This document shows, piece after piece, positions 32,545 to 54,554 of a DNA stretch of 64,000 nucleotides. The translations under genes were made by a program, and so were the position numbers. Each line of letters begins with the position of its first letter. The first letter of the stretch is position 1. Source of the stretch: Rhizophagus irregularis (lineage: Eukaryota > Glomeromycota > Glomeromycetes > Glomerales > Glomeraceae); the NCBI RefSeq assembly GCF_026210795.1, contig NC_089445.1, forward strand, positions 2,108,001 through 2,172,000. The letters are read 5' to 3'. The notes under the pieces were generated by a model, which saw only the letters and a list, made by a program, of their open reading frames with translations, was not told the DNA's origin and made no database searches.

Positions 32545-33456
32545 TTATTTTATTAACATACAAATTTACCTCAAATAATTCTTTGATAGTTTTTTTATCA
32601 GCGGGATTTTTGTTTCAAAAGGTATATTATGCAAAACCAGTTGTTCAGTTCGTGCACATAATAATTTTGGTTTTTTTTTGCGGCCTCTCGAATTTGTTCT
32701 AATGTATCAGCCTTTTCAAAAATTTCCTCTAAATGTGAACTCATCTCATCTCGCATAATTGCAACACCCTGAAGACCCAAATTAATTATTGACATAATTC
32801 GTTCAGCTGGATTTGCCCAACTGTGGTAAGGTGCAGTTCGCAATGCAATAAGAATATCAAAGTTACCACGAAGGAATAGACAAAGAAGGGATATTTGTAC
32901 TGAACCAAAAGTTATTTGATGGTCTGGACCACCATCTGTGTAAAGACAAAGAATGGGAGGTATGTTTGGTCCTGTAAAATTCGGTTGAATGTCTAATAGT
33001 GGTACTAGGTTGAAAAAGTGTATCCTTATATGAAACAAATACTTTACCATTATAAAAGGAATGTTCAATTGATTCAGGAATATCAATAAAAAAAGTTACA
33101 GAAGGGGTAAGAGATAGTTTGGTAAAATCATGATCACTTGCTACAAGAACTGTATTTGTACTAACTATATTTTTCTTATTACGTATGTGGTACACCTTCT
33201 CTGATTGGTATTTTATGCTTATCATCTGCAGCAATGAAACAAACATGACTGCGATAAAGAATAGCAAATTCATGTAGATACCAAAATAAACAAGCACAAT
33301 AATGTGCATCTGGATGATCTTTGCGTAATTGTCTAGCTTGGACTTGATATTCTTGATATTTAATATTAAATCGGCCAGTATATGTATTGCCGCTGCTGTA
33401 GTTGGATTGGTTAGCCAAAATTGAAGACGGATCCATTCTTCACATGGAAGTGCGAT

Positions 33457-35375
33457 TTTATTTTATTTTATTTTATGTAAAGCAGGCAGGGGCTACAAAA
33501 AAAGGGCATGATTCTGTAGTAATACAACCCAAACAAGTCCCACCATCGAAGACCAGAGGAGCTGGCACCCGACCCTAACTTCTTAAAAAGAAAAAACCTG
33601 AACCACTACCACGTCCAATAAAGGTCCAGGCAAACACACTGGGAAAAATTGAAAAAAAAAAGTGGAGAGGACAAGTCCCCTTTTCAAGAAATTGTGGCAC
33701 TAAACATAAACATATTCTATCCTAAAAATAATACAATTCTGAAATTTGTAAAACCGCTAATTACAGCGTAGGCTAAACTAGTTTCTGTAATAAAGTCAAA
33801 ATTTCTGCTAAAACCGCCTTGTTATCTTTATTACCACCCTTTTTCTTTGAGAAATTCTTTGCCTTCTTCTGAGTATTCAGGTGTTTCTCCTCCTGGTTAT
33901 TATTTTTGGAGACTTTTTTCAAGGATGTAGGTTTGTCTTTCTTCTTAGGCTGATTACTGTCCAAATTCTTGTCAGACTTACCTGACTTTTTCGTATTCGG
34001 TGTATTTTTAGCCTTTGGTTTATTTTGTGCTTTCTTCAAGGTAGGAATGGAGTGTCGACACTATTTCAACTCCTTACCATCAGGTACGAAAAACTGTGGC
34101 GTATCTAAGGCTCTTAGTGTGGTCTCACAATTCTCGAAATAGGCCACAAGTTTCCTCCTTCCTTTACTTGTTTGAATTATTTTAAACGAGCTAGCACCGC
34201 ACTTCATTAAAAATTCACATGGTTTACAGTCCATCCACAAGGTAGCCATCGTCATATCCTCCAGAATGTCATGAATAACGGCTTGGAACTTTTCACGTTG
34301 TTTTCTTTCTCGTAAAGTCCAACTTGCAGGGAACCATCTAACGGGTATACCTCCAGGTCTGTCGTCCAATATTTATTAACTGGGGAAGGACAAAAGAGGA
34401 AAATGCTATTTTGACTCGGAGAGTCTGATACTTATGTTGCCATTTAACGGAACAATTAATAGCGTTTCCCCAAAGTTTTAACTGCTAAAATTTTCTGCAG
34501 GTCCCAGATATACGGGATATCGTAAACTATTATGTCTCGGATTCGCTCTTGCTCCTCTCTGACAGTTTCGTATCCTGTCAGTATCTGTGTAGCTTCTGGT
34601 TCAGATGATTTCTTTCCCTTATGGGAATTTTTGGCTGATGTTTTCACATCAGGAGTTGCCTTCGTTGATTGGTTCATGGTTTGTTTATCAGCTGTAATAC
34701 GCGCCTTTTGTTTATCTTTCTTCCAGAAATTTTCGGGTATTACAGTTTGATCAACAAGGGGCACTACTATATCAGGCATTGATGGAAGCTTGATAGGTAC
34801 TGGATTTGGTGGTTTTTGGAATCCTTGGCGTAAAAGATCATCTTCATCAAGCTCTAGGAAAGGTGACGCATCCATTAGATAATCATCAGTATCCTGAGAT
34901 TCTGCATCGTCATCATCATCATCATCATCCATATCGCCAAAATTGTAATAGAATTGGGTAGAAAAATTATCCCAAGACCTGGACGCAGCATATAGCGCTA
35001 TAGAAAATATTAGCGAAAGGGTGGTGGGTTGTATATTCGTAGCCTGAGCTTGTGAAGTGAAGTTCGCAGGGTTGGCTGTTTCGCCAAACTTCTGTATCAG
35101 TAACTGGGCTTTATCCTTAGGTACTGAGGGGTTTTTTTCAAATAAGTCCTTGAGGAAACCGTCCTGTACAAAAGAACTTAAGTGGTGTGTAAAAGTCTGA
35201 AAATAAATTTTGTTAAACTTGGAAACGAAGTCTAAAGCTGCTTCGTTTGGTGTTCGACTCTTATCCATAGACATTTTTATATTTGTGTAATAAAATTTAA
35301 TAAAGGGGATTATTTTTTAAAAAAAATTATTACGCAGAAATTTTCGTAAAAAATGTATTTGGGAAAGAGTTTTTT
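33457..35375 (-). mobile_element. ORF1-only non-LTR retroposon, copy A (1.92 kb)
   Basis: Flanked by an exact 15-bp duplication ACATGGAAGTGCGAT (33442-33456 and 35376-35390). Read on the minus strand it has a 5' leader, one ORF1-type gene (35274-33773), a conserved 3' UTR of about 250 bp and a (TAAAA)n tail at the left end. No reverse transcriptase or endonuclease is encoded. Long target duplications and an A-rich simple-repeat tail show target-primed reverse transcription by a LINE enzyme supplied in trans. It sits inside the transposase of the 7-kb TIR element. Confidence 0.9.
33773..35274 (-). pseudogene. ORF1 (gag-like) RRM protein, copy A, broken
   Basis: Starts MSMDKSRTPNEAALDF and carries a conserved N-terminal region (PTTLSLIFSIALYAASRSWD), an acidic D-run (DMDDDDDDDD), a linker, an RRM-like fold starting IRDIIVYDIPY, a basic middle part (WTLRERKQREKFQAVIHD) and a Lys/Asn/Gln-rich tail ending in LTLLQKLV. 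An indel near 34480 shifts the frame inside the RRM. A Trp codon changed to TAG at about 34060 (after GKELK) adds a stop. An RNA-binding ORF1 protein would coat template RNA in a retrotransposition particle. Confidence 0.88.
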
Positions 35376-37291
35376 ACATGGAAGTGCGATATTTGGGCTT
35401 CCAATTGTTTTACTATAGTTCCACACAGATCACGAATTGAAATAGCTAATGGCATATATAAAGTTAGTTTGTGTTATCGATCATCAACTGCTGGCATATT
35501 CTATATTGATAATTCAAATAAAAAATTAAATTGAATGAAACAATTTGATAATAATAATATGTTAATCAAAAATTACCTCATTAAAATAGGCTTCCATTTT
35601 ATTCTAAAAGATGTCAAATTCCTTGCCTTTGAAACCACTATTAACTTGTAAATAAATAATTATTGACGGATCTTTAAGTATAAGCATCAATCGTAATCAA
35701 TCTTCAATTTCTCTTTGCAAATAGGATTCAATGTTGTGGAAGCATCACCAGTTAAATCATAATACAATGTTTGAAGCATAACTGGAGTAACCTTTTTGAT
35801 AAGAGAATACTTTTTAAAGCAAATAATTTATTAATTTAATACATTTTTTCTTATTTGGCGAGTAAAATACTTTGGAAAGCTTTCTTGAATTATTGATATT
35901 ACTTGTGCATTTTCTGTTTCTAATCTTTGATCTGCTAATAATAGAGCTTTCCATATATAATTAAGAGTACCTAGATAATTGCCCTGGTGATACTGGTAAA
36001 TAGTGACAGGAAAGTCAAGTTGCAAATTTTAAATATAACAATATCTTTGCATTGGATTAGATGGAATATATTCCTCAAGATTAAAAAATTCGTAATTGTT
36101 CTTGTTAGACAATTTCTGAGCATCTTTCAACGGTATATACTTACAGATCTTGACTAACATTTCGTACTGCCATATTACTAGTATGACGAACATTTAAACT
36201 CTTTGTAAATACTTCGCATATTGGTTGATCATATTTGCTAATTCAAATACTTCTAAAATAAAATCTGTCCATTTTGCTTCACTCGCCCATGGTTGACCAA
36301 TTGAGAGCTCCAATGATTCTGCTAATTGCTCAAGTTTTTCTCTTTTAAGACTCTCTTTTTTATGATGTGAAGTATAATAAAATTTATTATAATTGCTGCC
36401 ACATTGATATTGACTTAAGATATAGTGAATGAGAAGCAAGTGTGTCATGATGCAGATCAATATACCAAAGAAGATCTACAAGTTGCTTGATAAATATTTT
36501 CGCAATTTTCTTCTGATCTACTCTCCAACCATTTTTTTGGTTTTCTTTTAATAATGCTATGACATCATTGTATAAAACATCTCGTTGAGTATCTTCTCTT
36601 TTAATTGATGGAAAGTATGGCTTATGGGAAATGCATTTCTTTCAAATTGTTGATTTTGTTGTACTATATTATTTTCTTCAGTATGTACAATAAAACGTAT
36701 ATACTTTAATTCTAGCTCTGACATTAAAGTTATATCATCATACAATCCTTCTCTTAGATTATTCTACTTGCCATTCCCTTTACCAACGTAAACCCTTACA
36801 TTACATACACCAAATACGCCTTCAGTAATTGCTTCATATATTTCACCAAATGTACAGTACATGTTTCTTCAACAATTTTAATAACTTGTTGACTGATTAT
36901 ATTTTTTTGCCCTTCGTCAATGCTAACAAAAAAATGGACCATGTTTGAAAAATTTAATAATGTATCAAAATTATCTCTTAAAAATATTACAATATTTATT
37001 ATATTTATTCAATTTGACACGTAGCATTTGTCCATAATCAAACATATTTAAACTTAATTTTATTTTAGCACGCAGTATTTTTCTATGGTTGAGCATACAT
37101 CAATAAAGTTTTGATAGTATTTTCCGTGTTTTATATAAATTAATGTAACACTAAAACTTAAATATATTCTTTTGTGTAATTGATTAAATCATTCGCTAAT
37201 ATAGACAATATATAGTGTTGTTGTTCAAGAACCGTTTTTAGAAAATGAGAGAAGGGGGTTATGTTAAACAAACATTTTAATTGGTCCGGCC

Positions 37292-37745
37292 TAACAAACA
37301 TTAGAAACAAAATAATTAGATTGCTTATTAGAAGACGAAATTAATGATAGAAGAAAAATTTTTATTACTTGATTAGATTGATTTTCATTACAATCAGATA
37401 GGTTTTCATTTAGATTTTCGCGGGAGACATCATAATCTAGGATACCATCATGAGAAAAATTTTCGCATGTATCGTAAGGTAGATAGGTATCATAAGATAG
37501 ATTTTCAAGGGTGTCATAGGGTAAACAGACGTCATAAGATAGATTTTCATAGTAGGTATTATTATCATAAGTGGGTGGTAGACTTTCGTAAGTGTTGTCA
37601 TAAAGAAAATTTTTGTAGGCATTATAAAATAGGGTATTATTGTTAGGAATATTATCACGGATATTATTATAATCATGGGTGCTATCATAAGAAATACTTT
37701 CTTGATTATCATGGGTGTTATCATATTTCCTAACTTTAGGTCTAT
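37292..37745 (-). pseudogene. Tyr/Asp/Asn-rich repeat ORF
   Basis: Open frame rich in Tyr, Asp and Asn with repeated units such as ENLSYDTYLPYDT and YDNTHDNQESISYDSTHDYNN. It ends SNVC-stop exactly at the border of the 7-kb TIR element. Upstream it abuts a DDE endonuclease fragment in another frame. If the TIR element were removed, this ORF would lie directly upstream of the MULE N-terminus in the same frame, but with two stop codons at the junction. It could be a lost 5' exon of the MULE gene or unrelated low-complexity coding sequence. Confidence 0.4.
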
Positions 37746-38202
37746 AAATTTTTGACCTACCTGATCCAGCATATGCTCTGTAATGAACGAAGAATGAAAG
37801 CTTCTTTACTTTTAATGTGTAGATTTTCCCGCATTTGCAACCCGTGGCATGGACAAAGGAAGGTGAAAACCATGATAGAGCATCCTTGGTGTTTTGAGCA
37901 TAGAATATCTTCATCCTCTCTCATCCAGATTCTCCGCTGTCCATCATTTGTGTAAAAATGGCATTCATCATGTGTTATCTGAACTAATTCTTTATCTCCT
38001 GGCTTAAGTTGGGGTTCTGAAACTATATCCATCGTATCACCATCAAAATCTGTTATTAAGCTTTGATATTCAAACATCCTCTTCAACCATTCCTTTTTGT
38101 ATTTCAACCCCCTTTTTTCTTTCATCATACTTATATCCCCACAAATACATGTAGTTTTGGCATGTTTTCTCAGAAATTGTATCTTTTTTGATATGGCCCA
38201 TT
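37746..38202 (-). pseudogene. DDE superfamily endonuclease fragment
   Basis: Encodes SEKTCQNYMYLWGYKYDERK, then GVEIQ/LKYKKEWLKRMFEYQSLITDF, ELVQITHDECHFYTNDGQRR, IWMREDEDILCSKHQGCSIM, VFTFLCPCHG and, after a frame shift, EHMLDQVGQKFID. THDE (catalytic Asp-Glu region) followed by FYTNDGQ is characteristic of the DDE endonuclease-type transposases abundant in Glomeromycotina (from memory). Only the central part is kept; the second Asp and the Glu part are missing. Confidence 0.7.
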
Positions 38203-38203
38203 A

Positions 38204-38479
38204 CAGCTGATTGCAAAATTGTAAGACCACCCTATGATTTTCAATTTGAAAATTTGATATTTTGAATTTTTAAGAATTAGTAAAAAAGCAAGTTTAAATA
38301 CCTATTTTGGTAATAACTTTAACTTTTTAAAATTAATAAAGATTTTAAAGTAATTTATTTATATTGAATCATATGATATATTTCTATTTTTATTTAAGGA
38401 GTTGAATAAACAGGTTTTTAATTTGATTTTTTACTGGTTAAAAAATCATAAGGTGATCTTACAATTTTGCAATCAGCTA
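38204..38479. mobile_element. Tc1/mariner-type MITE, 276 bp
   Basis: The left end CAGCTGATTGCAAAATTGTA and the inverted copy at the right (TACAATTTTGCAATCAGCTA) match over about 38 bp with a few changes. TA flanks both ends (38202-38203, 38480-38481). The interior is AT-rich without an ORF. It lies between the hAT dimerisation-domain remnant and the DDE fragment. Confidence 0.85.
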
Positions 38480-38481
38480 TA

Positions 38482-40254
38482 AGAGAATCTTGAGACAGAT
38501 TTTGATGATCACTATCTAAAAGAGAATTATACATAGAAAAACTTTGTTCAATGGTACAACTTGAAATTAGCAGCCAAATGCAATCCATTGCAATATTAGA
38601 AAGGATTGGCAGTTGTATTGCCTTATCTTCCCAATATCAATCCAATTCCATTTCACTTAAAAACTCGTTATCTAATTTACAATAAATTCTCCATTCTTGT
38701 AATAAGTCATCTAATAGGTTGTCAAATTCTTTAATTATACTATACTGTCAAATGTTTTTTTGCAAATACTTGACATGCATAGAAAAGTGGCTGAGCTGGA
38801 TGATTAGGAATATGTGCAGCAAACTTGACATAAGCTGCTTCAAATGCTGCCCAAAAAATGAAATAGGATTTATGTGTATTAAATTGGAGACTATTAATTA
38901 AGTTTTCTAAGAAAAAACCAAAATCATTTGAATTCCTATATGTTTCGATATATGCAGTAAAAGTTGTTGAAGGTATAATTCTACAAAAGGAAAAACAGGT
39001 TTTTTTAATTGTTGGAAAAAATCAAGATCTTAAACAAATTCTTTAGCATAAGAGGAAATGAAATTAAAGTAAATTGCAATTCCTTTTCATTTTCCAAGAA
39101 AGAATTAATAGCAGCCAAAGTGTTGTGTTTCTTATCATTATTGAATTCTTCTTTAAAAAAAGAAGGCCAATAGATAATATGATCCTTTGCATATGAAACC
39201 ATCTGAAACTAAGAATTCCAATGCATTTTGTTATATAAAGGAATTTTGCATGGTGAGGGAATTCCATGCATTTTAAATAAGCCAGGTATCATCCTCTTCA
39301 GGAAGGAAAATTAACAAAAACCTCTTTAATTTTATCTAAAAAACATTTTAAAGTATGAAATTGAGGTAATGTTCTCCACATATCTCTTTAATTTTATTTA
39401 GAAAAAAACAAATCCTTTTTTATTAATTAGAACTTTTTTTTCATATTAGATTGTGCAAACACTTTGAACAAGAAAATTAATGCAAAATAATTAAAAAGAA
39501 AAAAGAAAAATATCGACCACTATGTAACCATAATTATTATCATGATGAAATTCGCCTCCTCTTACAATAAAAATAATGTCTACCAGCAGCCTACATACCC
39601 AATAAGATTTATAATTTTCATGTACGTGGCTGAATCTGAAAGAAATAGGCATGGCAAATTGAAGGATATATTAAAGTGAGTAAGAATGGTTGTGAGAACT
39701 TGTCCCATTGTGGTATTATTTACATGTTCAAGAAAATCATTTTGTTTCATTACGATAACAAAAAAGGGTGTTGACAACACTCCGAGCACAATCATCAGTA
39801 GTTTTACCCATAATTATGGCCACAGGTTTTGAATCAAAAAATAATTTAAGTGACTGGAAGTGTTTATCAAAAATGCTAGGTAGGTAATTTTGTCTGAGAG
39901 TAGGGGTTTGAGGAATGGAACCTCCATTTTTAACATGTTTTTTAAAAAATAGAAGTAGTGAATTGACTTTTTCAAGAGGAATGTCTGGTCTTCAATAAGT
40001 TGTTTTTTTGATTCTGAAACTGCCTGAGTACATAAAAGGGTAAGTTGTTGTGTTTTATTCTGGCTTTCTTTTTGACTTCTTACATCAATAACGTGTTTCT
40101 GACTTTTACAATGATTATCTACAGTAGATTTACGCTTCCAGTCTATAGAAATATTGCAATAATTGCAAAAGAGAACATTGTCATCAACTCGAAAAATATC
40201 TTTATATTCATTACATCTAGTAAAAACTGATGATGTTTTTTGTTTTTTTGGCAT
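38482..40254 (-). pseudogene. hAT transposase pseudogene
   Basis: Starts MPKKQKTSSVFTRCNEYKD with a BED-type zinc finger (CNYCNISIDWKRKSTVDNHC then KSQKH). The body follows through stops: a segment around CARSVVNTLFCYRNETK and DHVNNTTMGQVLTTILTHFN (39795-39660), then short fragments. At 38650-38500 it ends in a typical hATC dimerisation motif (AIQLPILSNIAMDCIWLLIS, SCTIEQSFSMYNSLL, HQNLSQDSL). Several frame shifts and deletions. Target duplications of the original element are not evident. Confidence 0.8.
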
Positions 40255-40692
40255 TGTGAAAGAAAAAAAGATGATTGAACTGATAATCCATAGCAAATTA
40301 AATATGTTTTACTGCGGATTATACGCTCTGATATCAGTGATATGGGATAATTTAAATTATGTGATTTTATGATGCGATCAGCTTAAATTATGCATTTATC
40401 GCATAATTATGCATTTAACATGATATTATGTGATTTACAGCTTGGAACTTCTCACATTGTTTTCTTTCTCATAAAGTCCAACTTGCAAGAAACCATCTCA
40501 CAGGTATACCTTCCAGGTTAGTCATCCAGAACTTGTTAAATTGGAGAAGGGTAAATGAGTTCAACACTATTTTGACTCTAAGAGTCTGATATTTGTGTTG
40601 CCATTTTACAGACAATTTAATAGTATTGCCCATAACATTAATTCTCCTTAGATTTTCTTAACATCCTAGGTATACAGAATATCATATACAAT

Positions 40693-41646
40693 CTCAACTA
40701 TCTAAAGGTCAGAATTGATCACCAAGAAGTGGCCGAAATCAGAAGCAGAACCAAGACTCAGCTAACAAGGTTAGAACAAATACTACAGATAACAAGATTA
40801 AGATGAGCAAACCTATTGGAAAAAAACACATATCTTCAACTTTAAAGAATATGAAAAAAGGTTTGGACGGTAGTGAATCTGGAAAACTAACATTGTTAGC
40901 AGAAATTAGATCACTACTAAGAAGGCTTGAGAACTGGCGGGATGACTGCTTGGCCTTGGCGACTATATGTAGATTTCTACCTTTTCAATTATCAAAAAAT
41001 AACTTGAAAGATTTCGGTTTAGATATTGTTATGAAAAAATTCCCAGAAATATTAATTATAATGATCGATTGTGGTAGACAGTATAGTAAACTTCGTATCT
41101 GTAAAATACTAATTTAAATTTTTTTTTTACCTGACTTATTGTTCTGCTCCTTTTATTTTTTTTTGTTCGATATGGGTTTCATCTGCAGTAGCAGTGAGTC
41201 CTTGGCAGTGTTGGAAATTCAGATTTTAAATCATGTGCAGAATCCACACATTATTTGCAATTTTTATGTGCGCAAATTCATATGCAATGTGCGGAAATGT
41301 GTAAAATATACAAGAATGTGTCAGATATGCAAATTTTTGTGTGCGCAAAGCGCACGCAAAAATTTTTGGTCATGTGCGGAGTTTTTAAAATTTGTGCGCG
41401 CACACACTCCGCACATTGAATTTCCAACACTGGTCCTTGGGGGCACTAAGAAAAGACACCTGAAAAAGGTAGACTTACTCCCCTAGCCTAAGTCCTTTAC
41501 TGATAGTGCACATATGGTTGCTTCGCCAAATTAGCAGATGGTGTAGTTCTTTACTAAATTAGGATTTATGGTAATTTTACGTGTATTGTATGAACTTATT
41601 GTTAAAATCTTAATAAATCTATATGTGCTGCAGCAAAAAAAAAAAA
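40693..41646 (+). mobile_element. poly-A-tailed retroposon F nested in fragment E
   Basis: A + strand unit ends in a TAATAAA polyadenylation-type signal (about 41610), then CAGCA and a 12-nt poly-A run (41635-41646). Imperfect flanking repeats AGAATATCATATACAAT (40676-40692) and GGAATATCACACAAT (41647-41661) look like a decayed target duplication. Its coding remnant at 40803-41117 (MSKPIGKKHISSTLKNMKKG, then LTLLAEIRSLLRRLENW) resembles the ORF1 C-terminus of copies A-D (LAEILSLLRKL). Its 3' UTR carries an inserted hAT MITE. Confidence 0.6.
41206..41432. mobile_element. hAT-type MITE, 227 bp, with CpG/TGCGC-rich interior
   Basis: Termini CAGTGTTGGAAATTCA and TGAATTTCCAACACTG are inverted, with an exact 8-bp duplication GTCCTTGG at 41198-41205 and 41433-41440. 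The interior repeats TGTGCGCA / GTGCGGA motifs. A CAGTG start and 8-bp duplication fit hAT. Confidence 0.9.
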
Positions 41647-41720
41647 GGAATATCACACAATAATGTCTCTGACTTGCTCTCACTCTTCTTTGTATCCTGT
41701 CAGTATTTGTGTTATGGGTT

Positions 41721-42715
41721 TTGATTGATTTTAATCAGTACTGCGCCACATAACTGATAATTGGCAAATGTGGATATGGTTTGCTTTGTTATTGTTATGT
41801 ATTTTTTTGTGTATATGTACTATAATTACTAGTATAGATGCCATCAGAATTATTTTTACGGTTACAGCATGTGCTGTATCACCGTAAAAAAAAACTGCAA
41901 ATCGTAAATGCCGTAATGCTGTAATTTAATTTGACGCCGTAATGCCATAATTTAATTTGGTGCCGTAATGTCGTAAATTTACATGGCATAAATAGATAAT
42001 TAAAAAATAATTCATTTACATTTATTTTTAAGAAACTTTAAATTCTCTTTTTTTTTAGGAATGATATCACTAAGTGGAAAAGGATTTTCTTTGAAATTTA
42101 CTTTAAGAAATGACATTTAACTTCGTTTCTTATTCTTTTTTTTTTATTTACTAAATGTAATCAACTAAATATAATGTTTATTTATATAATTAATTTCATT
42201 CACTAATAATTATAATGTTTATTTACTAATTATCATGTTTTATAATGTTATTTAATACTAATTATAATGTAATTTTGAATAGGAGTGAGAAAATTTATTA
42301 CTTGGTCTATTAAATATTTATTAACCAAATTAAGTTAATTTATTAAATATGTAAAATTTTTTAGATTACCGATCTATTACTTTAATCACGACAATTATAT
42401 TGCCATAAATCACTGTAAATATTGGAATTTATTTATTAAAGATTATTTTAGAAGAAGTAGCAATTTGATTTTATTCTTAAATCAAAATTTGACCACAATG
42501 TACCAAAATAATTAATAATTTTTACATCCTTATATCTATATAAATCAATTATCCAACTTGATTTTAAATAAATATGGTAAGTAGTTAAATAGTAACTTAT
42601 TTTTGATCACAAATCAAAAACGCATACTAAATAATGTAACATGTCAAAATACTTTTTTTTATTAAAAAAAATCAATCTATTCCAATTTTACATTTTTCAA
42701 AATTACAAATTTACA
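41721..42715. other. spacer with an imperfect palindrome and GCCGTAATG repeats
   Basis: 41853-41890 is an imperfect palindrome (TTTTTACGGT ... ACCGTAAAAA around ACAGCATGTGCTGT). From 41909 to 41985 GCCGTAATG(C)CATAATTTAATTTG-type units repeat about three times. The rest is AT-rich; no gene. Confidence 0.5.
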
Positions 42716-44355
42716 ATGTCATCCATTATTGAGCTTTCAGATATTGAAGAATATAATGCAGAAGATTTTGCAGATGTTGCAAAAATAGTTAATTAAGATA
42801 AGGTAAATAATGTGTGAAATAAGATAATATTTTATCCTTTCTAATAAATAAAATCAAATAGGATAGAGATGATATTAATGAAGATAAAAGTGAAGATGAT
42901 GAAAATGATGAAACAGTTGCTTTCTTTACTTCCAAACTACAAGTTCCAAAAATAATCTATACAACTGTTTTTGTAGAATACCCAGAAACCTTACTGGAGG
43001 AAGTCAACAATATACAATGTCACTGGTTGGAAGAATCACATGGATGCTTTTTCAGATGTAAGTATATATTGAATTTGATTTGATAGCAAATATATATATT
43101 TAATTAAAATTCTATTATTATGATAAGATTCAATATTCAACAAATGGTTCAGGTGGTTCTTCAAATATTAAGGAGTGTCCTTTTTTTGGTAGAATATCAA
43201 TTAAAAAGATAAAAGAATGTGCCAGGGCATTAATTACTGATCAAGAATTTGTCAACCAAGAGCATTGTAGCATTGATTTTGATTCTGAAACTTTTAAAAA
43301 GTACACACAACAGCAAGACATTAATTCCAAAGAAGCCAAAACATACATGTAAGATATTAACAATTATTCCTTTGATTTTGTTTATTATTTTGAACTAAAT
43401 GATTTATAAATTTATTTAGTTTATTTTTGGCAGTAAATGAATCTTCTTACCCTTTTAAAAAAGAGAATATATCTTATGATGGAAGAGCTCGTATTGGAAG
43501 ATGACTAATTATCAAACTCAAATAGTTTACATATTTTATTGATAAATTCAAACAGGGTGATCAATGGTATCGATTTATTAAAATTAAACCAGAAGAAATA
43601 GATATTTCACTTCCCCAAAATCTATTTTCTGGTACTGCACCTGTAAGTACTAAAAATCTTTTGCATTTTCTATTTTTTAAAACTAAAAACTAAATTAATT
43701 ATTTTAGGCGCGAGAAATGGCAAATTGTAGTATGATAATTCCTAGAAATTGTAGACGCAAAAAATGTGGTAATGTATCTAATTATTTAGTTTTATATTGT
43801 ATTATAGTGCCATATATAATTATCTAATTTTTAAATTTAAGAAATTCCTCATTTAAACAATGGAACTGCTGTCTGCAGTGATATAATTGAAAAATCATGC
43901 TTAGTACAATTTATCAAAATTATTCCTCACAATATTGCTGAATGTCTATTTGTTGCTCTTATTTGTATTGGTGTTCACAACCATTCTCCACAGAACACCT
44001 GCTGGAATTAAAAACAATTTACAATCTTGGCAATTTATCAGGATGATACTACCACTTCAAGATCTATTTTATCAGGTATAATATTGAATTTTAGTGAATA
44101 CTTTATTATTGTTGTATTATTAATATTTTAATATACTATATTAATTAATAGGAAATTTAATCAAAGCATATTTTAACAAAGATATCCTAGCAGAAGTACA
44201 TGTATCATTGAATAATATTGATAAATTACATTATTTGATAGGAAAAGCCTATAAAAATTTGCATCCATTTGGTCAAAGAGTAATGGGTATATATCATAAT
44301 GTATTAATAGCAAATTCTAATTTATCTAATTATGTTCATAAAATTGATAAGTTTT
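42716..44355 (+). pseudogene. transposase gene, 5' half (split by LINE)
   Basis: Starts MSSIIELSDIEEYNAEDFAD and continues through several probable introns and stops: acidic region (EDDENDET, 42890-42915), then FFGRISIKKIKECARALITD (43170-43240), SSYPFKKENISYDGRARIGR (43440-43505), QWYRFIKIKPEEIDISLPQN (43560-43620), CSMIIPRNCRRKKC (43725-43770), IPHNIAECLFVALICIGVHN (43920-43985) and GNLIKAYFNKDILAEVHVSL (44155-44210) to YVHKID (44350). It belongs to a transposase-like family common in Rhizophagus (from memory). The reading continues at 54570 (NNVQVIITCMLAEQAKRLIA), so the gene was split by the 10-kb LINE. Confidence 0.75.
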
Positions 44356-45567
44356 TAAATTTAATTTACATCTGTTTTTTTTCTGCAGCGCATTTGCAGT
44401 TTTATTAAAGTAAAAAAATAAAGAAAATATATACAAAGTAAAATTCCCTAATAACTACTCTAATATAATTAAACTACAAACCACTCGTCATACCGGTAGT
44501 ACCCCACGTGTGCACTGTCGTAGGTAGAATTCGTTTAGTAATAGGTCATCTTAGCCATAAAGGCCCTATCTTCAATGTCTGGTGATCACGGGACCCATTA
44601 CGCTGCAACTTTATCATAATTTTTTTTTATCATTATTATTGTTTTTTTATGTTGAATGGAAATTTTCCTAGACTTCCAAGGAGGTGACGCAAGCCTTCAT
44701 TATATTTTGATACCTTTTGTTCACGAAATGAGTTAGAGTATGTCAATAATGATTGCGTTGAGTTTCTATGTCCTCCTTATGTGTCTTTGAGGTCTTACAC
44801 TTGTCCTGAGGTGTGGTTTCCAAACATGTTCCCTAAAAGCTTCATGAAAGTATTTAATGATCTTTAGAGACAGGCATGAAGCAATTTTTCTTGATGTGAG
44901 TTTTTTAAGCCTCTTTACGATCGTGTGTGAAATCAAACCACATAGTAATTCCTGTCTATTCCTTTGTTTCGGTTCAGGAAAAGCTGGGTCTCTATATTCA
45001 AATATGGTGATGTAGAGTTCATTGATCATGACAGATTTTTTGCACTTGGAACGTTCGAATCTTATCTATCATTTCTTTTTCAGCAGTGAGGAACGCTTGT
45101 TCCAATCCAGCACATATTACTAAATGGTTCAAAGTCTCTTCATGATCACAGCAAGCTGGACACAGTACATCATCATAAATGTCGTTATGTTTTCTGAGAT
45201 TGTCAACTGTAGGTAATAAGTTATTTGAAGACTTTATGAAATTAATTAGAGTATTGTTGGTATCAATATTATTACAACGGCTCTTGTTAATGTTATTAAG
45301 ATAGCACCAGTGTGCGGTCCAATTCCATTCTATTGATATATCATGTGTTTGGTTATTGAAATAATCCTTCCAATTACTATTCAAAGACCACGTAACCTCT
45401 TCCAATGATTCCAAACAAGTCTATCTATTTCTATACTATGCCAAACTGGCAGAAATAATAAAGGAAAACTATAACTACATATAAATTGTAAGTCAACTAA
45501 TCTATTAGAATTGACAGATCGGTTATGATTTTTTTAGTAACCGCGTTGTACCATCATTTGTGGCCAT

Positions 45568-47507
45568 TTATTTTATTTTATTTTATTTTATGTGAAGCCG
45601 GCAGGGGATTTTACAAAGGGCATGATCCCGAAGTAATACAACCCAAATTAATCCTACCATCAATTTCCAGAGGAGCTGGAAGCCAACCCAAACTACTTGA
45701 AAATAAAAGACCTGTACTACTACCACGTCCGGTAAAAAGTCCAGGCGAACACACTGGGTAAAAATAGGAGGGGGAAAAAAGTGGAGAGGACAAGTCCCCT
45801 TTCCAAGAAATTATGGTGCAAACACATAAATCTGTTCTATCCTAAAAAATAATACAATTCTGAAATTTGTAAAACCGCTAATTAAAGCGTAGGCTAAACT
45901 AGTTTCTGTAATAAAGTTAAAATTTCTGCTAAAACCGCCTTGTTATCTTTATTACCACCCTTTTTCTTTGAAGTATTCTTTGCCTTCTTCTGAGTCTTCG
46001 GGTTTTTCTCTTCCTGGTTATTATTTTTCAGGACTTTCTTCGAGGATGTAAGTTTATCCTTCTTCTTAGGCTGATTACTTTCCAAATTCTTATCAGACTT
46101 ACCTGATTTTTTCAGATTCGGTGTATTTTTAGCCTTCGGTTTGTTTTGTGCTTTCTTCAAGGTAGGAATGGAGTGTCGACACCATTTCAACTCCTTACCG
46201 TCAGGTACGAAAAACTGTGGCGTATCTAAGGCCCTTAGTGTGGTCTCCCAATTCTTGAAATAGGCCACGAGTTTCCTCCTTCCATTGCTTGTTTGGATTA
46301 TTTTAAATGAGCTAGCACCGCACTTCATTAAAAATTCACATGGTTTACGGTCCATCCACAAGGTAGCCATCGTCATAAACTCCGGAATGTCATGAATAAC
46401 GGCTTGGAATTTTTCACGTTGTTTTCTTTCTCGTAAAGTCCAACTTGCAGGGAACCATCTAACGGGTATACCTCCCAGGTCTGTCATCCAATATTTATTA
46501 AACTGGGGAAGGGCAAATGAGGAAAGTGCTATTTTGACTCAAAGAGTCTGATACTTATATTGCCATTTAACGGAACATTTAATAGCGTTCCCCCAAAATT
46601 TTAACTCTGCTATTATTTTCTGCAGGTTCCAGGTATACGGGATATCGTAAACTATTATGTCTCAGATTCACTCTTGCTCGTCTCCGACAGCTTCGTATCC
46701 TATCAGTATCTGTGTAGCCTCCGGTTCGGATGATTTCTTTCCCTTATGGGTATTTTTGGCTGATGTTTTCACGTCAGGTTTTGCCTTTGTTGATTGGTTC
46801 GTGACTTGTTTATCATCTGTAACACGCGCCTTTTGTTTATCTTTCTTCCGGGAATTTTTGGGTATCACAGTTTGATTAACAGGGGCATTACTATATCAGG
46901 CATTGATGGAAGCTTGATAGGTACTGGATTTGGTGGCATTTGAAATCCTTGGCGTAAAAGTTCATCTACATCGGGCTCAAGTGGATATGACTCATCCATC
47001 AGATAATCATCTGTATTTTGAGATCCATCATCATCGTCATCATCATCATTACCCGTATCGCCAAAATTGAGATAGAATTGGGTAGAAAAATTATCCCAAG
47101 ACTTGGACGCAGCATATAGCGCTATAGAAAATATTAGCGAAAGGGTGGTGGGTTGTATATTCGTAGCTTGAGCTTGTGAAGTGAAGTTCGCAGGGTTGGC
47201 TGTCTCGCCAAACCGCTCTATCAGTATCCGGGCTTTATCCTTAGGTACTGAGGGGTTCTTTTCAAATAAGTCTTTGAGGAAACCGTCCTGTACAAAAGAA
47301 CTTAAGTGGTGTGTAAAAGTTTGAAAATAAATTTCGTTAAACTTGGAAACAAAGTCTAAAGCTTCTTCGTTTGGTGTTCGGCTCTTATCCATAGACATTT
47401 TTATATTTATGTAATAAAATTTAATAAAGGGGATTATTTTTTAAAAAAAATTATTACACAGAAATTTTCGTAAAAAATGTATTTGGGAAAGAGTTTTCTT
47501 GCGGTCT
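45568..47507 (-). mobile_element. ORF1-only retroposon, copy B (1.94 kb)
   Basis: Flanked by an exact 15-bp duplication ATCATTTGTGGCCAT (45553-45567 and 47508-47522). Same plan as copy A: 5' leader at right, ORF1, conserved 3' UTR, and (TAAAA)n tail at left. Inserted into the 3' third of the LINE. Confidence 0.92.
45894..47398 (-). pseudogene. ORF1 RRM protein, copy B, broken
   Basis: The N-terminal part 47398-46865 is intact (MSMDKSRTPNEEALDFVSKF), with an acidic GNDDDDDDDGSQ stretch. A frame break near 46868, two CGA-to-TGA changes just before DIIVYDIPY (about 46656-46668), and another TGA after QTL (about 46545) interrupt the RRM. The C-terminal half (46487-45894) is open to LTLLQKLV. The TGA after QTL is shared with copy D but not with A (CGA) or C (AGA). 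Confidence 0.9.
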
Positions 47508-47683
47508 ATCATTTGTGGCCATGTCTCAATACCATATTGTTCACTGTGTTGATACCATCGATCGCTGCCTGACTATCCGTTCATATGAATGTGTAAACAT
47601 AATTCACTGGGGGCGACTAATTGATTGTCAAATTGTTCGAGGCATCTGAGAACTCCGTGATTAGTAATGTTGATGAGATTATA

Positions 47684-47850
47684 CATGCTGCCCAAATTAT
47701 TTTGGGATGCCATAATTATAATTTGGGATGCCGTAATTTATTCAATTTATATATAATTTACTATGTAAAGTGCCAAAATAATTTGGGATGCTATAATTGA
47801 ATTTGGGATTTTACTTATAATTATGGCAGCCCAAAATAATTTGGGTGGCA
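47684..47850. mobile_element. Tc1/mariner-type MITE, 167 bp, in the LINE
   Basis: The arms CATGCTGCCCAAATTATTTT and AATAATTTGGGTGGCATG are inverted, continuing to about 40 bp (GGGATGCCATAATTATAA and its complement). TA (or TATA) flanks both ends (47682-47683, 47851-47852). The interior repeats TTTGGGATGC. No ORF. Confidence 0.82.
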
Positions 47851-49465
47851 TGTATAGATGAAATGGTTCTTTTAATAATGTCTAGGTCATAACTCGGGAT
47901 ATCAAGTGATATGAAAGGGGATTCATTCTCATGCCATGAAGGTTTCGTGATTATTCTCATCTTGATCAAATCAACAGGTGTCAAAATCTCATAATTGGAA
48001 GTGTCCTTAGTTGAACATTTTACATCAATAATTGTTGATTTGTGATATTTTTCCTTCTTTACACACACAGGATCATCCTTTATGTGAGTCGAGTTGGTTG
48101 AGCATCTGACGCATTTGGTAATCAAATTATTGTTATCTTGTCTGATCCAATGTTGATATGAGAACTGAATGAGATTTTTCTTTAAAATTTTTCCGAATTG
48201 GTACTCATCTCCATCGCGTGTAATGATCCATTCTTTACGCCTTCCATCGCTTGAAGGAGGAGAAGGTGTAAGTGTAATAGTCTTATTAATCAGGGTAATC
48301 GTAGCTTGGTACCGTTCTATTAATGTATGTTGTCCGTTCAAATTCTGATCGATAGCTATTTCTTCCAAGTATTAAAAAAAATTTGGGATTGGCCCTTTGG
48401 GATTTTTACCAAAAATCTTTTTGATCTGAGTCCAGGATAACATATCTACACCATTGTTGTGTGTAATGTGATCTAGAAAGTTAATATCAAGTAATTCTGC
48501 AGGTCATTTAATAAAAGATTCAATGGCCTTTCCTAAAGCTAAACATTTGATCCTTAAATGATTTCAATAAATTAAAGTTAAAGTTATTTTGTAAATTAAT
48601 TTAACCAATATGCATCCTTGTAATTCCATCCCAATCTCGTGAATTAATTCTAATAATAAATTCCAAATATTGTGCTGTACGTAAATGCACAATATTTTGG
48701 TACGTGAAAATATTATTATTCGCGGACCTTGTGATTCTCATTTTTGTCTTAAGTAGATTATGAAGTGTTTGGCATTAATTTTCACTAACTAAGGTAGTTT
48801 TCAGTCTGTATTCGAGCCTTGCCATTAAAACTACATTATTGACATATGCTATTTGGCTTGCTGTGACCTTCTTGTGTCTAAGTGCGTTAGTTATTGAAGT
48901 AATTTCTTGTTGCGCTCTTTTAAATACATGACTCTGGACTGCTCTGCTTCTGATATAAATGCCCAGATATCTAGCATCTTTTAAGGGAGGGTTGGCTTTT
49001 ATCAATGTCAAGTCGGTTCCCATATTAATTTCATTTGAAGTGCCTTTTGGTGTGTTCCAAACCAGGAGTTCAGACTTTTCTCCATTGATCGTAATATCAT
49101 TGAGTTTGAAGAATGAGTTTGATATGCTGATGATCTTTGTTATCTCATCTTTATTAGAAGCAATCCATGCAGTATCGTCTGCGTATGCTATACAAGAAAC
49201 CTTAAGTGTAGTTTCAGATGCAACAACATTGTGAAAATCTAGGATCATAGAAAATGCGCCAAATGAGTGGTGAAATTGTTTCTCCCTGATCTATGCCGTC
49301 CCTACCTGGAAAACATTCGAAAGTCCATATGCCATGATTATTTGAAGTTTCCTGTTTTTGAATAAATTAATAATGAAATCCATCCTTTTTAGCACCATTT
49401 CTAATGGGATCATTCCGACTGAATCAAAAGCCTTCGTCATATCTTGCAGGCAAATCCACAATTCT

Positions 49466-51331
49466 TTTATTTTATTTATTTTTATTTTTAAAATAAAGAC
49501 TAGTACTGGGGTCGCACAATACATAGGAACAGGAACCTACAAAGTAAGACCATTATTCCAAATTAATGATCAACCCAACCTCTCAAACGAATCGAAGGGG
49601 TCGCCTAGCCTCGCTCCACAAGGAATGCAGGCTTGGCCACAACTCAAGCGACGAACCAAATAGAACAAAAAAAAAAGACACTCAAACACTAATTTAGCGA
49701 GAGTTCCCAGTCAAAAAAGAAAGAAAAAAATTAATTCTGCTTATTCTGAATAAAATCTATTATTCTTATAACTACTAAATCTTTAAGAAAAAAAGAAAGA
49801 ATCGCCAGCGTTAACCGAACGAAATTGCTATACTAGTTTTCGCAGTAAGGATAAAATTTCTGCTAAAACCTCCGTGTTATCCTTATTACCTCCTTTATCC
49901 CTGGGCTTCTTATTGGACTTCGACTTCTGGGATTTGGGATCCTTCAACGAGTCTTTAGTAGATTTGGCTTGCTTCTTAGCACTGGTTGAGGATTTCTGGT
50001 TTTTCTTCTTAAGGTTAACGTTACCAGACTGTTGCACGGATTTCCCAGGCTTCTTGTCAAGAACATTCTTTGCCTTTTATTTGGTTGGTGCTTTCTTCAA
50101 GGTAGGTAAGAAATGTTGACACCATTTCAACTCCAGGAAATTCTCCCAGAAAGCTTGCGGAGTTCCTAGGGCTTTGAGTGTAGCCTCCCAATTCTCGAAA
50201 TATCCTACGAGCTTCCTCTTACCTTTACTTGTTTGTATAATTTTAAACGCGCTAACACCGCACATCATTAAAAATGGTTGTGGTTTACGGTCTGCCCACA
50301 AGGTAGCCATTGTCATCTCAACCGGAATATTGTGAATGACGGCTTGGAACTTTTCGCGTTGTTTCCTTTCTCGTAAAGTCCAACTTGCGGGAAACCATCT
50401 CACTGGTATATCTCCCAGGTCAGTCGTCCAGAACTTGGTGAATTGGGGAAGGGAAAATGAGTTCAAAACAATTTTGACTCTAAGAGTCTGGTATTTGTGT
50501 TGCCGTTTTAATGACAACTTAAGAGTTTTGCCCCATAACGTTAATTCTCCTAAGATTTTATTAACGTCCCAGGTATACGGAATGTTGTATACAATAATGT
50601 CTCTGACTTGCTCTCGCTCATCATCGCTTTCTTTGTATCCTGTCAGTATATGTGTGGCCCCAGGTGCGGTAGTTTTTGCCCCCAAAAATAGGGTATTTTG
50701 TTTGTCCGAGGTTTGTGCCTCAGGATTTGCCGTAAATGATTGGTGTATGATTTGTTTATCAGCTGCAACACGGGGTGTAACATATACTGGTTTTGGTGTA
50801 GTCTTCGGTGTTGATATGTACGTAGATCCAAATTCATCTTCAGCGGAGGGACATTCCGACTCTGAGTCACCCATGTCACCAAATCTCGTATAGGCGCGGG
50901 TAGCAAAATTATCCCATGACCTGGACGAAGCGTAAAGGGCTATAGAAAATAATAGTGAAAGGGTGGTTGGTTGTATATTCGTCAATGCCGCCTGTTGAGC
51001 GAAGTTGTTCGGGTTGGCAGACTCGCCAAACATATCTACTAAAAGCTGTGCTTTATCCACAGGTTGCTGTGGGTTTTTATCAAACAAAGTTTTGAGGAAA
51101 CCGTTCTCAACAAACTGTCCAAGCTGAAATGTTGTATAAGATAAGAACGTTTCCCCTTCTGCTGAAACGAACTCTAAAAAGTCATCAACAGATATATTTT
51201 CTACTGAGTCTCCCATGTTCGACATTTTTATTTTATGTAAAAAATTTTTAAATAAAGTGAAGAAATTTAAAAAAATTTTTGCAGAAATTTTCGTAAAAAT
51301 GAAAAGGAGAAAGAGTTTTTTTGTATTTATT
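49466..51331 (-). mobile_element. ORF1-only retroposon, copy C (divergent lineage)
   Basis: Bounded by the 16-bp duplication GCAAATCCACAATTCT at 49450-49465 and 51332-51347. Minus-strand ORF1, diverged 3' UTR, and a (TTTTA/TTTA)n tract at the left end. The ORF1 is clearly a different lineage from A, B and D (MSNMGDSVENISVDDFLEFV at the start). It sits back to back with copy D at the same target. Confidence 0.9.
49828..51225 (-). pseudogene. ORF1 RRM protein, copy C, one in-frame stop
   Basis: A 465-residue frame with a single stop (TAA at 50079-50077). The order is: N-terminal conserved region (ALTNIQPTTLSLLFSIALYA), a linker with fewer acidic residues than the other copies, an RRM (VRDIIVYNIPYTWDVNKILG then YQTLRVKIVLN, about residues 205-260), a basic part (WTLRERKQREKFQAVIHN), a central part ending ALGTPQAFWENFLELKWCQH, the stop, then a Lys/Gln/Ser-rich tail ending in LAEILSLLRKLV. 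It is the best-preserved representative in the window and defines the domain plan. Expected to be an RNA-binding, LINE ORF1-like protein. Confidence 0.88.
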
Positions 51332-51347
51332 GCAAATCCACAATTCT

Positions 51348-53127
51348 ATTTTATTTATTTATTTATTTTATGTGAAACCGGCAGGGGATACAAATGTGAG
51401 TATGATTCTGAAGTAATACAACCCAACTAAATCCTACCATCGATTTCCAGAGGAGCCGGAAGCCAACCCGAACTATTTGAAAAAAAAAAGACCTGCACTA
51501 CTACCACGTCTGATAAAAGTCCAGGCAAACACACTGGGTAAAAAAAGGAGGGGGAAAAAAGTGCAAAGGACAAGTCCCCTTTCCAAGAAATTGTGGTGCA
51601 TACACATAAACCTATTCTATCCTAAAAAATAATACAATTCTGAAATTCGTAAAACCGCTAATTAAAGCGTAGGCTAAACAAGTTTCTGTAATAAAGTTAA
51701 AATCTCTGCTAAAACCGCCTTGTTATCTTTATTACCACCCTTAATCTTCGAGGTATTCTTTGCCTTCTTCTGATTCTTCGGGTGTTTCTCCTCCTGGTTA
51801 TTATTTATCAGGACTTTCTTCAAGGATGTAGGTTTATCCTTCTTCTTAGGCTGATTACTTTCCAAATTCTTATCAGACTTACCTGATTTTTTCGGATTCG
51901 GTGTATTTTTAGCCTTCGGTTTGATTTGTGCTTTCTTCAATTTAGGAATGGAGTGTTGACACCATTTCAATTCCTTACCGTCAGGTACGAAAAACTGTGG
52001 CGTATCTAAGGCCCTTAGTGTGGTCTCCCAATTCTCGAAATAGGCCACAAGTTTCCTCCGTCCTTTACTTGTTTGAATGATTTTAAATGAGCTAGCACCG
52101 CACTTAATTAAAAATTCACATGGTTTACGGTCCATCCACAAGATAGCCATCGTCATATCCTCCAGAATGTCATGAATAACGGCTTGGAACTTTTCACGTT
52201 GTTTTCTTTCTTGTAAAGTCCAACTCGCGGGGAACCATCTAACGGGTATACCTCCCAGGTCTGTCGTCCAATATTTATTAAACTGGGGAAGGGCAAATGA
52301 GGAAAGTGCTATTTTGACTCAAAGAGTCTGATACTTATGTTGCCGTTTAACGGAACATTTAATAGCGTTCCCCCAAAATTTTAACTCTGCTATTATTTTC
52401 TGCAGGTTCCAGGTATACGGGATATCGTAAACTATTATGTCTCGGATTCGCTCTTGCTCCTCTCCGACAGCTTTGTATTCTGTCAGTATCTGTGTAGCCT
52501 CCAGTTCGGATGATTTCTTTCCCTTATGGGAATTTTTGGCTGGTGTTTTGGCATCAGCTTTTGCCTTTGTTGATTGGTTCGCAACTTGTTTATCATCTGT
52601 AATACGCGCCTTTTGTTTATCTTTCTTCCGGGAATGTTCAGGTATCCCAGTTTGATCAACGGGGGTCATTACTATATCAGGCATTGATGGAAGCTTGATA
52701 GGTACTGGATTATCCCAAGACTTGAACGCAGCATATAGCGCTATAGAAAATATTAGCGAAAGAGTGGTGGGTTGTATATTCGTAGCTTGAGCTTGTGAAG
52801 TGAAGTTCGCAGGGTTGGCTGTTTCGCCAAACTTCTGTATCAGTAACTGGGCTTTATCCTTAGGTACTGAGGGGTTTTTTTCAAATAAGTCCTTGAGGAA
52901 ACCATCCTGTACAAAAGAACTTAAGTGGTGTGTAAAAGTTTGAAAATAAGTTTCGTTAAACTTGGAAACGAAGTCTAAAGCTTCTTCATTTGTTGTTTGG
53001 CTCTTATCCATAGACATTTTTATATTTATGTAATAAAATTTAATAAAGGGGATTATTTTTTAAAAAAAATTATTACGCAGAAATTTTCATAAAAAATGTA
53101 TTTGGAAAAGAGTTTTTTTTCAGTCTC
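51348..53127 (-). mobile_element. ORF1-only retroposon, copy D, at the same site as C
   Basis: Bounded by the same 16-bp sequence GCAAATCCACAATTCT at 51332-51347 and 53128-53143, so three copies of the target flank C and D. Same plan as A and B, with a short (TTTA)n tail. The 3' UTR matches B closely. Confidence 0.92.
51674..53017 (-). pseudogene. ORF1 RRM protein, copy D, with in-frame deletion
   Basis: MSMDKSQTTNEEALDFVSKF opens a frame to 52319. Relative to copy B the segment between SWDN and PVPIKLP (about 54 codons including the acidic run) is missing in frame, with a short shared GGATT/ATT at the junction. The RRM is cut by the TGA after QTL that B also has. The C-terminal half continues at 52156-51674 to LTLLQKLV. 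Confidence 0.88.
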
Positions 53128-53322
53128 GCAAATCCACAATTCTTTCTTTGAAGCGTGTGCGTCTTCAATAATGTTATTGATCACATGAATTGGAGTGTTT
53201 GTGAAACCTCCTGAGGCCTGCGAAATTTGGTCCTTTGAGGACATCGTGTTGTAGTAAGTGCACACTCAGTCTTTTAGTGATAATTTTTACTGTAAGTTTC
53301 TTTAAACATTTCCATTCCTTCA

Positions 53323-53613
<291 letters not shown>

Positions 53614-54554
53614 TCAGTCTGTCCATGACAATCTTATCTTTATGTCTATTTAATAAACTGTTGAGCATTTTGGTTTGGTTATTTTGTTTCATAGAAGCTC
53701 TTTTATTAATAAAATCCTCAATCAACTTGTTCTGCGCAGATGTTTGATGTTGTTTAATAATGTTCATAGTTACTGTCCACGCATCTTTAACATGGTTTGC
53801 CCAGGCTGCATTCCAAACTGCATCAGGGGCATTTAATTTGACATTGTTGCATTGCTGATTGATGTGATTAATATATGTAATAGGTATGGGTTGACCCATT
53901 AATCTCTTGCATGTTAAATACATTAAACAAAGTTGTCTTAACTGCACGTACAAGTGTTTTGGGATTAGTAAATCTACTTTTTTCTTTGACATATTTGCGC
54001 CCATACGAACTTTTTTGTTTGGTATAGAGCTAGTTGCACATTTAAGCATGTGTCCTTTAATAATCAACTATATCCTATTGAGATCCTGTATATCATGCTA
54101 AGGCTGGTCGAGGATTTTCCAGAGTTCAGGATCCTTAAACAATTGTGCGTATTCAATTTGTATTTGTCCCATTTTTCTTTATTCATATCTGCGTAGTTGA
54201 AAATTATTCTTTCATTGTTCTTCCTTGCACAGGTTGATCTTTTATAATTTCTAATAATATCCGACATGTTAACAATGCAAGTCACTATGTTATGGTCACT
54301 AGAAGTGCACATTTGTGCATCTATGATCGTGCTGTGTAGTAATTCATTACACCAATTAGGACTCAGCCATATATAATCTATATGAGTCGCATTCATGCTG
54401 TTAGACCATGTGAATTTTCTGAGATCAGGGTTTAGCTTCTCTAAATGTATCGATAAAACTGTTATTATTCAAAAAATCTAAAATTTTGGTGTCCATATAT
54501 TTATCGACGATGGCATTAAAATCACCTGCAATGATCATAAATTATATAATTAAT

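Follow-up and report, generated by a model that had tools for sequence, protein, structure and literature searches.

A family of ORF1-only retroposons concentrated in one candidate centromeric region per chromosome of Rhizophagus irregularis

We analysed a stretch of 64,000 nt from the arbuscular mycorrhizal fungus Rhizophagus irregularis DAOM197198 (C17:2108001-2172000, referred to here as the window; assembly GCF_026210795.1 / GCA_026210795.1, 146,748,485 bases in 32 contigs, C1-C32), which carries four copies, A to D, of a short retroposon whose sole open reading frame (ORF) is called ORF1. All four are ORF1-only elements that arose by retroposition and have neither endonuclease nor reverse transcriptase (RT). 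Whole-genome scans placed nearly all listed matches to this family in a single region on each of 31 of the 32 chromosomes, and these regions are probably centromeres, for which they are candidates on the basis of sequence. We give somewhat better than an even chance to the reading that the family consists of ORF1-only parasites of long interspersed nuclear elements (LINEs), that RT is supplied to them in trans, and that one branch is addressed through its ORF1 to the candidate centromeres. If an ORF1-only element holds a chromosomal address on borrowed RT, then ORF1, and not the endonuclease, can choose the destination. A passage in the 2023 assembly paper of R. irregularis names the whereabouts of centromeric repeats as a subject for future work (PMC10234402), and the regions provide candidate centromere coordinates, open to testing, on 31 of the 32 chromosomes. 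An earlier analysis of the window alone, the original prediction, had described the four copies; the single region per chromosome, a sister family on the chromosome arms and the several types of 3' untranslated region (UTR) among clustered elements go beyond it.

Copies in the window and their insertion sites

All four predicted copies were found on the minus strand: A, a B-type ORF1-only retroposon, at 33457..35375; B, the type copy of the A/B/D lineage, at 45568..47507; C, of a second lineage with an unrelated 3' UTR, at 49466..51331; and D, B-type with an internal deletion in ORF1, at 51348..53127. None of the four has an intact ORF. The frames of A, B and D are split, D in addition lacks an internal piece of ORF1, and C has one in-frame stop, up to which its ORF1 extends for 382 codons (50077..51225, minus strand). 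A fifth copy, a fragment of the ORF1 core, lies at about 40429..40692 on the same strand. Where repeat blocks align without gaps, A, B and D mostly show 84-95% identity to one another, with 68-83% in parts of the 3' UTR (at 45585..45893, minus strand, in B), and C is 63-79% identical to them. Full-length copies mapped in fetched loci are ~1.9 kb long. The predicted lack of enzymes was borne out, since Pfam detected no endonuclease or RT domain in the five element ORFs scanned. An RT match inside 33457-53127 belongs to the LINE that hosts the C and D insertions; this broken APE-RT LINE (L029 type; 44601..54468, minus strand) is host to B, C and D and is not part of the element.

The copies end in (TAAAA)n/(TAAA)n tails, in agreement with the original prediction, and are flanked by the target-site duplications (TSDs) that it had described. 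Exact searches located the duplication of A, ACATGGAAGTGCGA, at 33442 and 35376 (33442-33455 and 35376-35389), and that of B, ATCATTTGTGGCCAT, at 45553 and 47508 (45553-45567 and 47508-47522). The sequence GCAAATCCACAATTCT was found at 49450, 51332 and 53128 and is common to C (49450-49465 and 51332-51347) and D (51332-51347 and 53128-53143), and in the paralogous LINE L029 the same site is present once, and empty. Since GCAAATCCACAATTCT occurs three times around them, C and D were inserted into the same 16 bp site, head to tail. Such head-to-tail neighbours with a copy of the target between them were found on C17, C12 and C28, and in the sister family on C19. In a sample drawn from loci L001-L024, the window, and the C23 and C28 clusters, TSDs of 14-20 bp, with differing sequences, were present in 11 of 11 strictly mapped full-length copies on nine chromosomes, and 0 of 106 mismatched flank pairs used as a control reached 12 bp. 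A and D failed the strict end probes of this test, and their TSDs are those given by the exact search.

A single region on each of 31 chromosomes

Genome searches with the ORF1 protein, the B 3' UTR and the DNA of copy C all led to the same places. In the B 3' UTR search, 38 of the 40 scored matches (from 85 candidates) were in, or at most 1 kb from, the main regions, and the remaining two were second patches on C13 and C18. Because only the best candidates receive a score in the protein and DNA searches, the location claim rests on whole-genome pattern scans. These gave 102 matches for the ORF1 core (100 listed; control 0), 94 for the N-terminal part of ORF1 (control 0) and 36 for the B-type 3' UTR (control 1 on each strand). 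Of the 230 listed matches, 223 were in one region per chromosome, on 31 of the 32 chromosomes (core, 97 of the 100 listed out of 102; N-terminal part, 91 of 94; 3' UTR, 35 of 36). Together the regions make up 0.64% of the genome, and the largest spans 88 kb. The window contains part of the C17 region (C17:2141508-2175628), from 33508 to 64000. Outside the regions and the second patches, the whole-genome scan found no match to the B-type 3' UTR pattern. C24 has one decayed copy, better copies are present on C30 and C32, and C24 and C25 have one listed pattern match each.

The limits of the regions were drawn from these same matches, and the fair test is the concentration per chromosome. The core matches all lay within 120 kb on 23 of the 25 chromosomes having at least two listed core matches, and random placement gave this result on at most 3 or 4 chromosomes (two runs, 2000 trials). 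The first run used a neighbour's length for C6, C18, C21, C22, C25, C29, C30 and C32, and the second used the printed lengths for C30 and C32; one comparison in the first run used the first 50 of the 89 matches to a 5' leader. Other sequences were rarely found inside the regions: the tail motif of LINE F5 in 0 of 63 matches, sister-family loci in 0 of 37, APE in 0 of 116 and RT in 2 of 150, one of which was the query itself. The 5' leader motif was inside in 0 of 89 matches, but its pattern fails to recognise the leader of the cluster elements, which is diverged. Two APE matches lay within 20 kb of the regions, and one sister locus, on C18, lay within 50 kb.

One internal site per chromosome is the pattern of a monocentric centromere. 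The regions may instead represent some other domain present once per chromosome, a heterochromatic anchor for instance, rather than the site of the kinetochore. We consider this unlikely. The presence of a second patch on two chromosomes is in its favour, as is the CpG-type decay described below, which is as in methylated heterochromatin. Against it stand the single internal site on 31 of the 32 scaffolds and the similar LINE clusters taken as centromeres in Coccomyxa and Chlamydomonas (a passage in PMC8226300). That source describes the Zepp and ZeppL LINEs of green algae as clustered once per chromosome at putative centromeres, and places them by their endonuclease and RT domains. The likeness is close, with one cluster per chromosome and near absence elsewhere (here 223 of 230 listed matches, on 31 of 32 chromosomes). 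Grem-LINE1 of Mucor, which has ORF1 and an ORF2 with RVT and is clustered in pericentric regions (a passage in PMC7377519), is likewise a non-LTR (long terminal repeat) element. Unlike all of these, the elements described here carry no RT. The second patches of cluster-type elements lie at C13:3004979-3010587 and C18:2745959-2747473; it is possible that they are old centromere positions, or traces of rearrangement or assembly.

The distribution could also result from retention, in which elements insert anywhere, arm copies are lost, and survivors accumulate where repeats abound and recombination is perhaps low. Insertions in genes are generally selected against, and transposon-like ORFs and broken LINEs are plentiful in those parts of the regions that were read. 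However, near-identical young copies (C9 and C20, with branches of 0.2-0.4%) are present within the regions, LINEs and the sister family have survived on the arms, and the pattern scans found few copies elsewhere: the C10 match, about 150 bp long, and the C13 and C18 second patches. We regard retention as an improbable explanation for the distribution.

Conservation of ORF1 and relatives on the chromosome arms

ORF1 had been predicted to be an RNA-binding protein with an RNA recognition motif (RRM). Two conserved blocks of ORF1 aligned with the two-RRM part of LINE ORF1s, in a weak profile match (hhalign E=0.004, probability 8.5) with an alignment score of 32.4 against a decoy maximum of 25.1 in 60 shuffles. 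In contrast, Pfam detected RRM in 0 of 7 ORF1 members. The zf-CCHC zinc knuckle was found by Pfam in 0 of these 7, compared to 2 of the 4 LINE ORF1s used for comparison, none of which was close to the element ORF1, and a PDB sequence search gave no match. From the profile alignment, ORF1 is likely to be an RRM-type RNA-binding protein.

Selection on ORF1, also part of the original prediction, was evident in the ratio of nonsynonymous to synonymous substitution rates (dN/dS). This was 0.34-0.35 between C and B-type copies, so that ORF1 has not evolved neutrally between lineages, 0.23-0.36 between cluster and arm copies, where dS was saturated, and 0.30-0.39 among diverged arm lineages; three cluster-arm pairs had no defined value. 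Judged by these ratios (0.23-0.39), purifying selection acts on ORF1 between lineages. Pairs of the six intact cluster copies had ratios from 0.27 to 1.9, with one pair undefined, as would be expected if most of their differences postdate insertion.

When B-type copies were aligned, 6 of 22 had no break. The commonest shared break, a CpG-type stop, was present in 7 of the 22 copies, and its scattering over the tree suggests repeated decay. Stops recur at CGA codons changed to TGA in cluster copies scattered over the tree, which suggests decay through CpG methylation in the regions. Two stops are common to a pair of sister copies (support 0.825) that lie on separate chromosomes, C28 and C4, and the spread of a broken copy is therefore possible. 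The original prediction that ORF1 is needed in cis was thus not established.

Conservation of the 3' UTR, as predicted for all four copies, was seen for A, B and D only. That of C was unrelated to the others, with scores of 20-26 against shuffle maxima of 31-32. The 3' UTR of L024 looks like a third type, and its sole excess was against C (31, shuffle maximum 29), where the similarity lies in 18 T-rich bases. The B and C types occupy the same regions even though their 3' UTRs are unrelated.

A search for sister elements gave 93 matches, of which 52 rows (37 loci) were elements on chromosome arms and 41 were copies of the cluster family. The arm elements have the same plan of 5' leader, ORF1, 3' UTR and poly(A); ORF1 was intact in 5 of the 6 read (503-539 aa), TSDs were clear in L027 and L028, and target repeats were found around L025 and L026. 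The 3' UTR of the C1-type arm elements aligned to that of LINE F5 with a score of 83 (shuffle maximum 34). The shared F5 tail motif had 63 matches in the genome (control 0). Of these, 14 lie next to an arm ORF1-only copy and 14 are 2-4 kb away from a listed LINE RT, with no match in both classes and 35 assigned to neither. The C19-type 3' UTR scored 60 against LINE F3 (shuffle maximum 45), partly in T-rich sequence, and 37 against LINE F7 (shuffle maximum 32). A (TGTCAA/TGACAA)n target is common to the C19-type arm elements and LINE F3. The 3' end of F3 was reached in 5 of the 6 places read, and all five were in this repeat with a common flank. Among eight C19-type 3' ends, five were in the repeat, three of these with the F3 flank, and those of L051-L053 were elsewhere. 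LINE F3 looks site-specific (L043, L056, L057, L058, L060).

The LINE tail and LINE target, direct marks that were seen in the arm relatives only, support the supply of RT in trans, as the original prediction had required. In pairs of short interspersed nuclear elements (SINEs) and LINEs, the nonautonomous partner bears the same 3' tail as the LINE by which it is moved, and the C1-type arm relatives resemble SINEs in sharing the F5 tail. SINEs encode no protein, whereas the elements described here keep a selected ORF. How parasites of this kind can switch from one partner to another is illustrated by the arm relatives and their LINE tails. A precedent for movement in trans with targeting is TRE5-A.2 of Dictyostelium, which lacks ORF2 and is moved by the ORF2p of TRE5-A.1, and a tagged version based on it was still targeted near tRNA genes (as described in a part of PMC5633606). 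TRE5-A.2, however, is a variant of one autonomous element, and the present family is deep, with no close autonomous form found.

We considered whether the elements are derivatives of one RT-bearing LINE that lost ORF2 and were amplified locally by segmental duplication. The arm branch has a 5' leader in common with the autonomous LINE F6 (leader motif, 89 genome matches, control 0), and HAL1, the half-L1 of mammals, derives from L1 (according to a passage in PMC5753468), both of which are consistent with such an origin. However, TSDs differ between copies, and a DNA-level comparison of the C23 cluster (30 kb) with the C28 cluster (18 kb) showed only these elements to be shared. In addition, ORF1 is without a detected zinc knuckle and far from the LINE ORF1s compared, and several lineages have the same plan. 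We regard this origin as very improbable. The original prediction had named two outcomes that would refute it, continuation of most copies into an RT-bearing ORF2 and neutral evolution of ORF1 in all copies. Neither was seen, as no RT reading frame continued from the element in the 24 fetched loci and ORF1 was not neutral between lineages. Against the C17 window, the C23 and C28 clusters each matched in these elements and in pieces of other repeats that were short or diverged.

The original prediction had likened the elements to HAL1. The HAL1 ORF1 is a recognisable L1 ORF1. Both HAL1 and the present elements have ORF1 without ORF2, an A-rich tail and TSDs, and the plan of half a LINE was thus upheld. 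Identity with HAL1 was rejected, as the L1 ORF1 Pfam family was absent from the seven ORF1 members and the four LINE ORF1s were not close. HAL1 encodes ORF1p only, is nonautonomous and arose from L1 several times (same passage of PMC5753468). Here, ORF1 is a diverged family of its own, with several 3' UTR types and one branch that has one chromosomal address.

The leader AAACTCTTTCCCC...TCCGCAGTAA is also found at the start of another, third group of repeats, whose ORFs have no known function (for example L063, L065 and L067; read in L063-L067), and many retroelements here may share one type of promoter. L066 is a short element with the same leader, and the piece it encodes resembles, by eye, the N-terminal part of ORF1.

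Source of the chromosomal address

In the mechanism that we propose, the elements are nonautonomous non-LTR retroposons with ORF1 only, copied in trans by the RT of autonomous LINEs. The element's ORF1 protein, bound to the element RNA, would carry the ribonucleoprotein (RNP) to the chromatin of centromeres. There, a LINE protein able to use TAAA/TAAAA tails would nick without strict sequence preference and prime cDNA synthesis. ORF1 would be kept because it supplies RNA binding and the address. The TSDs of the cluster copies are diverse and without a common motif, which suggests that the address is not a DNA site. That elements with unrelated 3' UTRs and diverse targets are found in the same regions favours an address in ORF1 or the RNP over one in the 3' end or a sequence-specific endonuclease. 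We infer that ORF1, and not a centromere-dwelling LINE, sets the address.

The main rival for the address is a LINE partner that dwells in the regions and, through its endonuclease or a protein of its own, carries the elements along. We consider this possibility unlikely, though it deserves serious weight. The arm relatives share a repeat target with LINE F3, so that a LINE can supply the target, and related broken LINE pieces occur in the C1, C5, C17 and C31 regions, with the C1 copy of the element inside an RT gene. The LINE matches in the flanks of 5 of the 24 loci (L001 and L003, the window LINE; L014, C5; L020, C1; L023, C31) are either interrupted by the element or oriented opposite to it, none of them continues it as an ORF2 would, and elements often sit inside decayed LINEs where such LINEs occur. 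The decayed pieces lie at 417-866 and 2864-3283 of L020, 3008-3595 of L023, 3086-3550 of L014 and 23063-24435 of the window, and those of C1, C17 and C31 are 46-66% identical to one another. Only the C17 piece was listed by the RT and APE searches, in which only the best candidates were scored. The diversity of the cluster TSDs argues against a partner that sets the address, as does the result of tblastn with ORFs from eight LINE families, which found nothing in C23 (30 kb) or C28 (18 kb) and found LINE pieces in the window. The low counts of RT and APE within the regions, with two APE matches within 20 kb, argue in the same direction. LINE F1 (L029 type), the host of B, C and D, was rejected as a centromeric LINE, since it has close copies off the regions on C10 and C25.

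Several results weigh against an address set by ORF1 and a location restricted to one region per chromosome. Seven pattern matches were outliers (one on C10 and three each on C13 and C18), and C29 had no pattern match at all. Pfam found no chromatin-binding domain in the seven ORF1 members, and the AlphaFold model of ORF1, from an alignment of window proteins only, had a pLDDT of 38, too poor for a fold search. Several young cluster pairs had dN/dS of 0.6-1.9, and the deep ratios could include selection in an RT-bearing ancestor. The decayed, mutually related LINE pieces in the C1, C5, C17 and C31 regions make a centromere-dwelling LINE possible, and they may possibly be the remains of such a LINE and of the partner. 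The comparison of 3' UTRs, which had been suggested as a means to find the partner, did not succeed for the window copies: with eight LINE 3' ends, no alignment to A, B, C or D scored above the shuffles (C against F8, 30, maximum 32). For the cluster branch, the only excess was a marginal one between L006 and F8 (28, shuffle maximum 27).

A more specific version of the proposal is that the family is a centromeric counterpart of HeT-A, whose ORF1 would read centromeric chromatin and which would help to build centromeres with enzymes from LINEs elsewhere. We hold this tentatively, at a little short of an even chance. Like HeT-A, the elements are without their own RT, are found in one chromosomal domain and form head-to-tail copies. 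HeT-A Gag is essential for telomere targeting in Drosophila (a passage in PMC5537684), which provides a precedent for an ORF1 address; a role in chromosome maintenance here is only a proposal. HeT-A attaches at chromosome ends, whereas the insertions described here are at internal sites with TSDs of 14-20 bp. An ORF1-only element with a single internal address per chromosome was not found in the literature searched, which comprised open-licence papers only.

Other repeats were observed in the window. An array of ~80 bp AT-rich units, which also form inverted repeats, is present at 25569-26052, and inverted repeat pairs with arms of 111 and 96 nt, ~1 kb apart, lie at 31287-32556.

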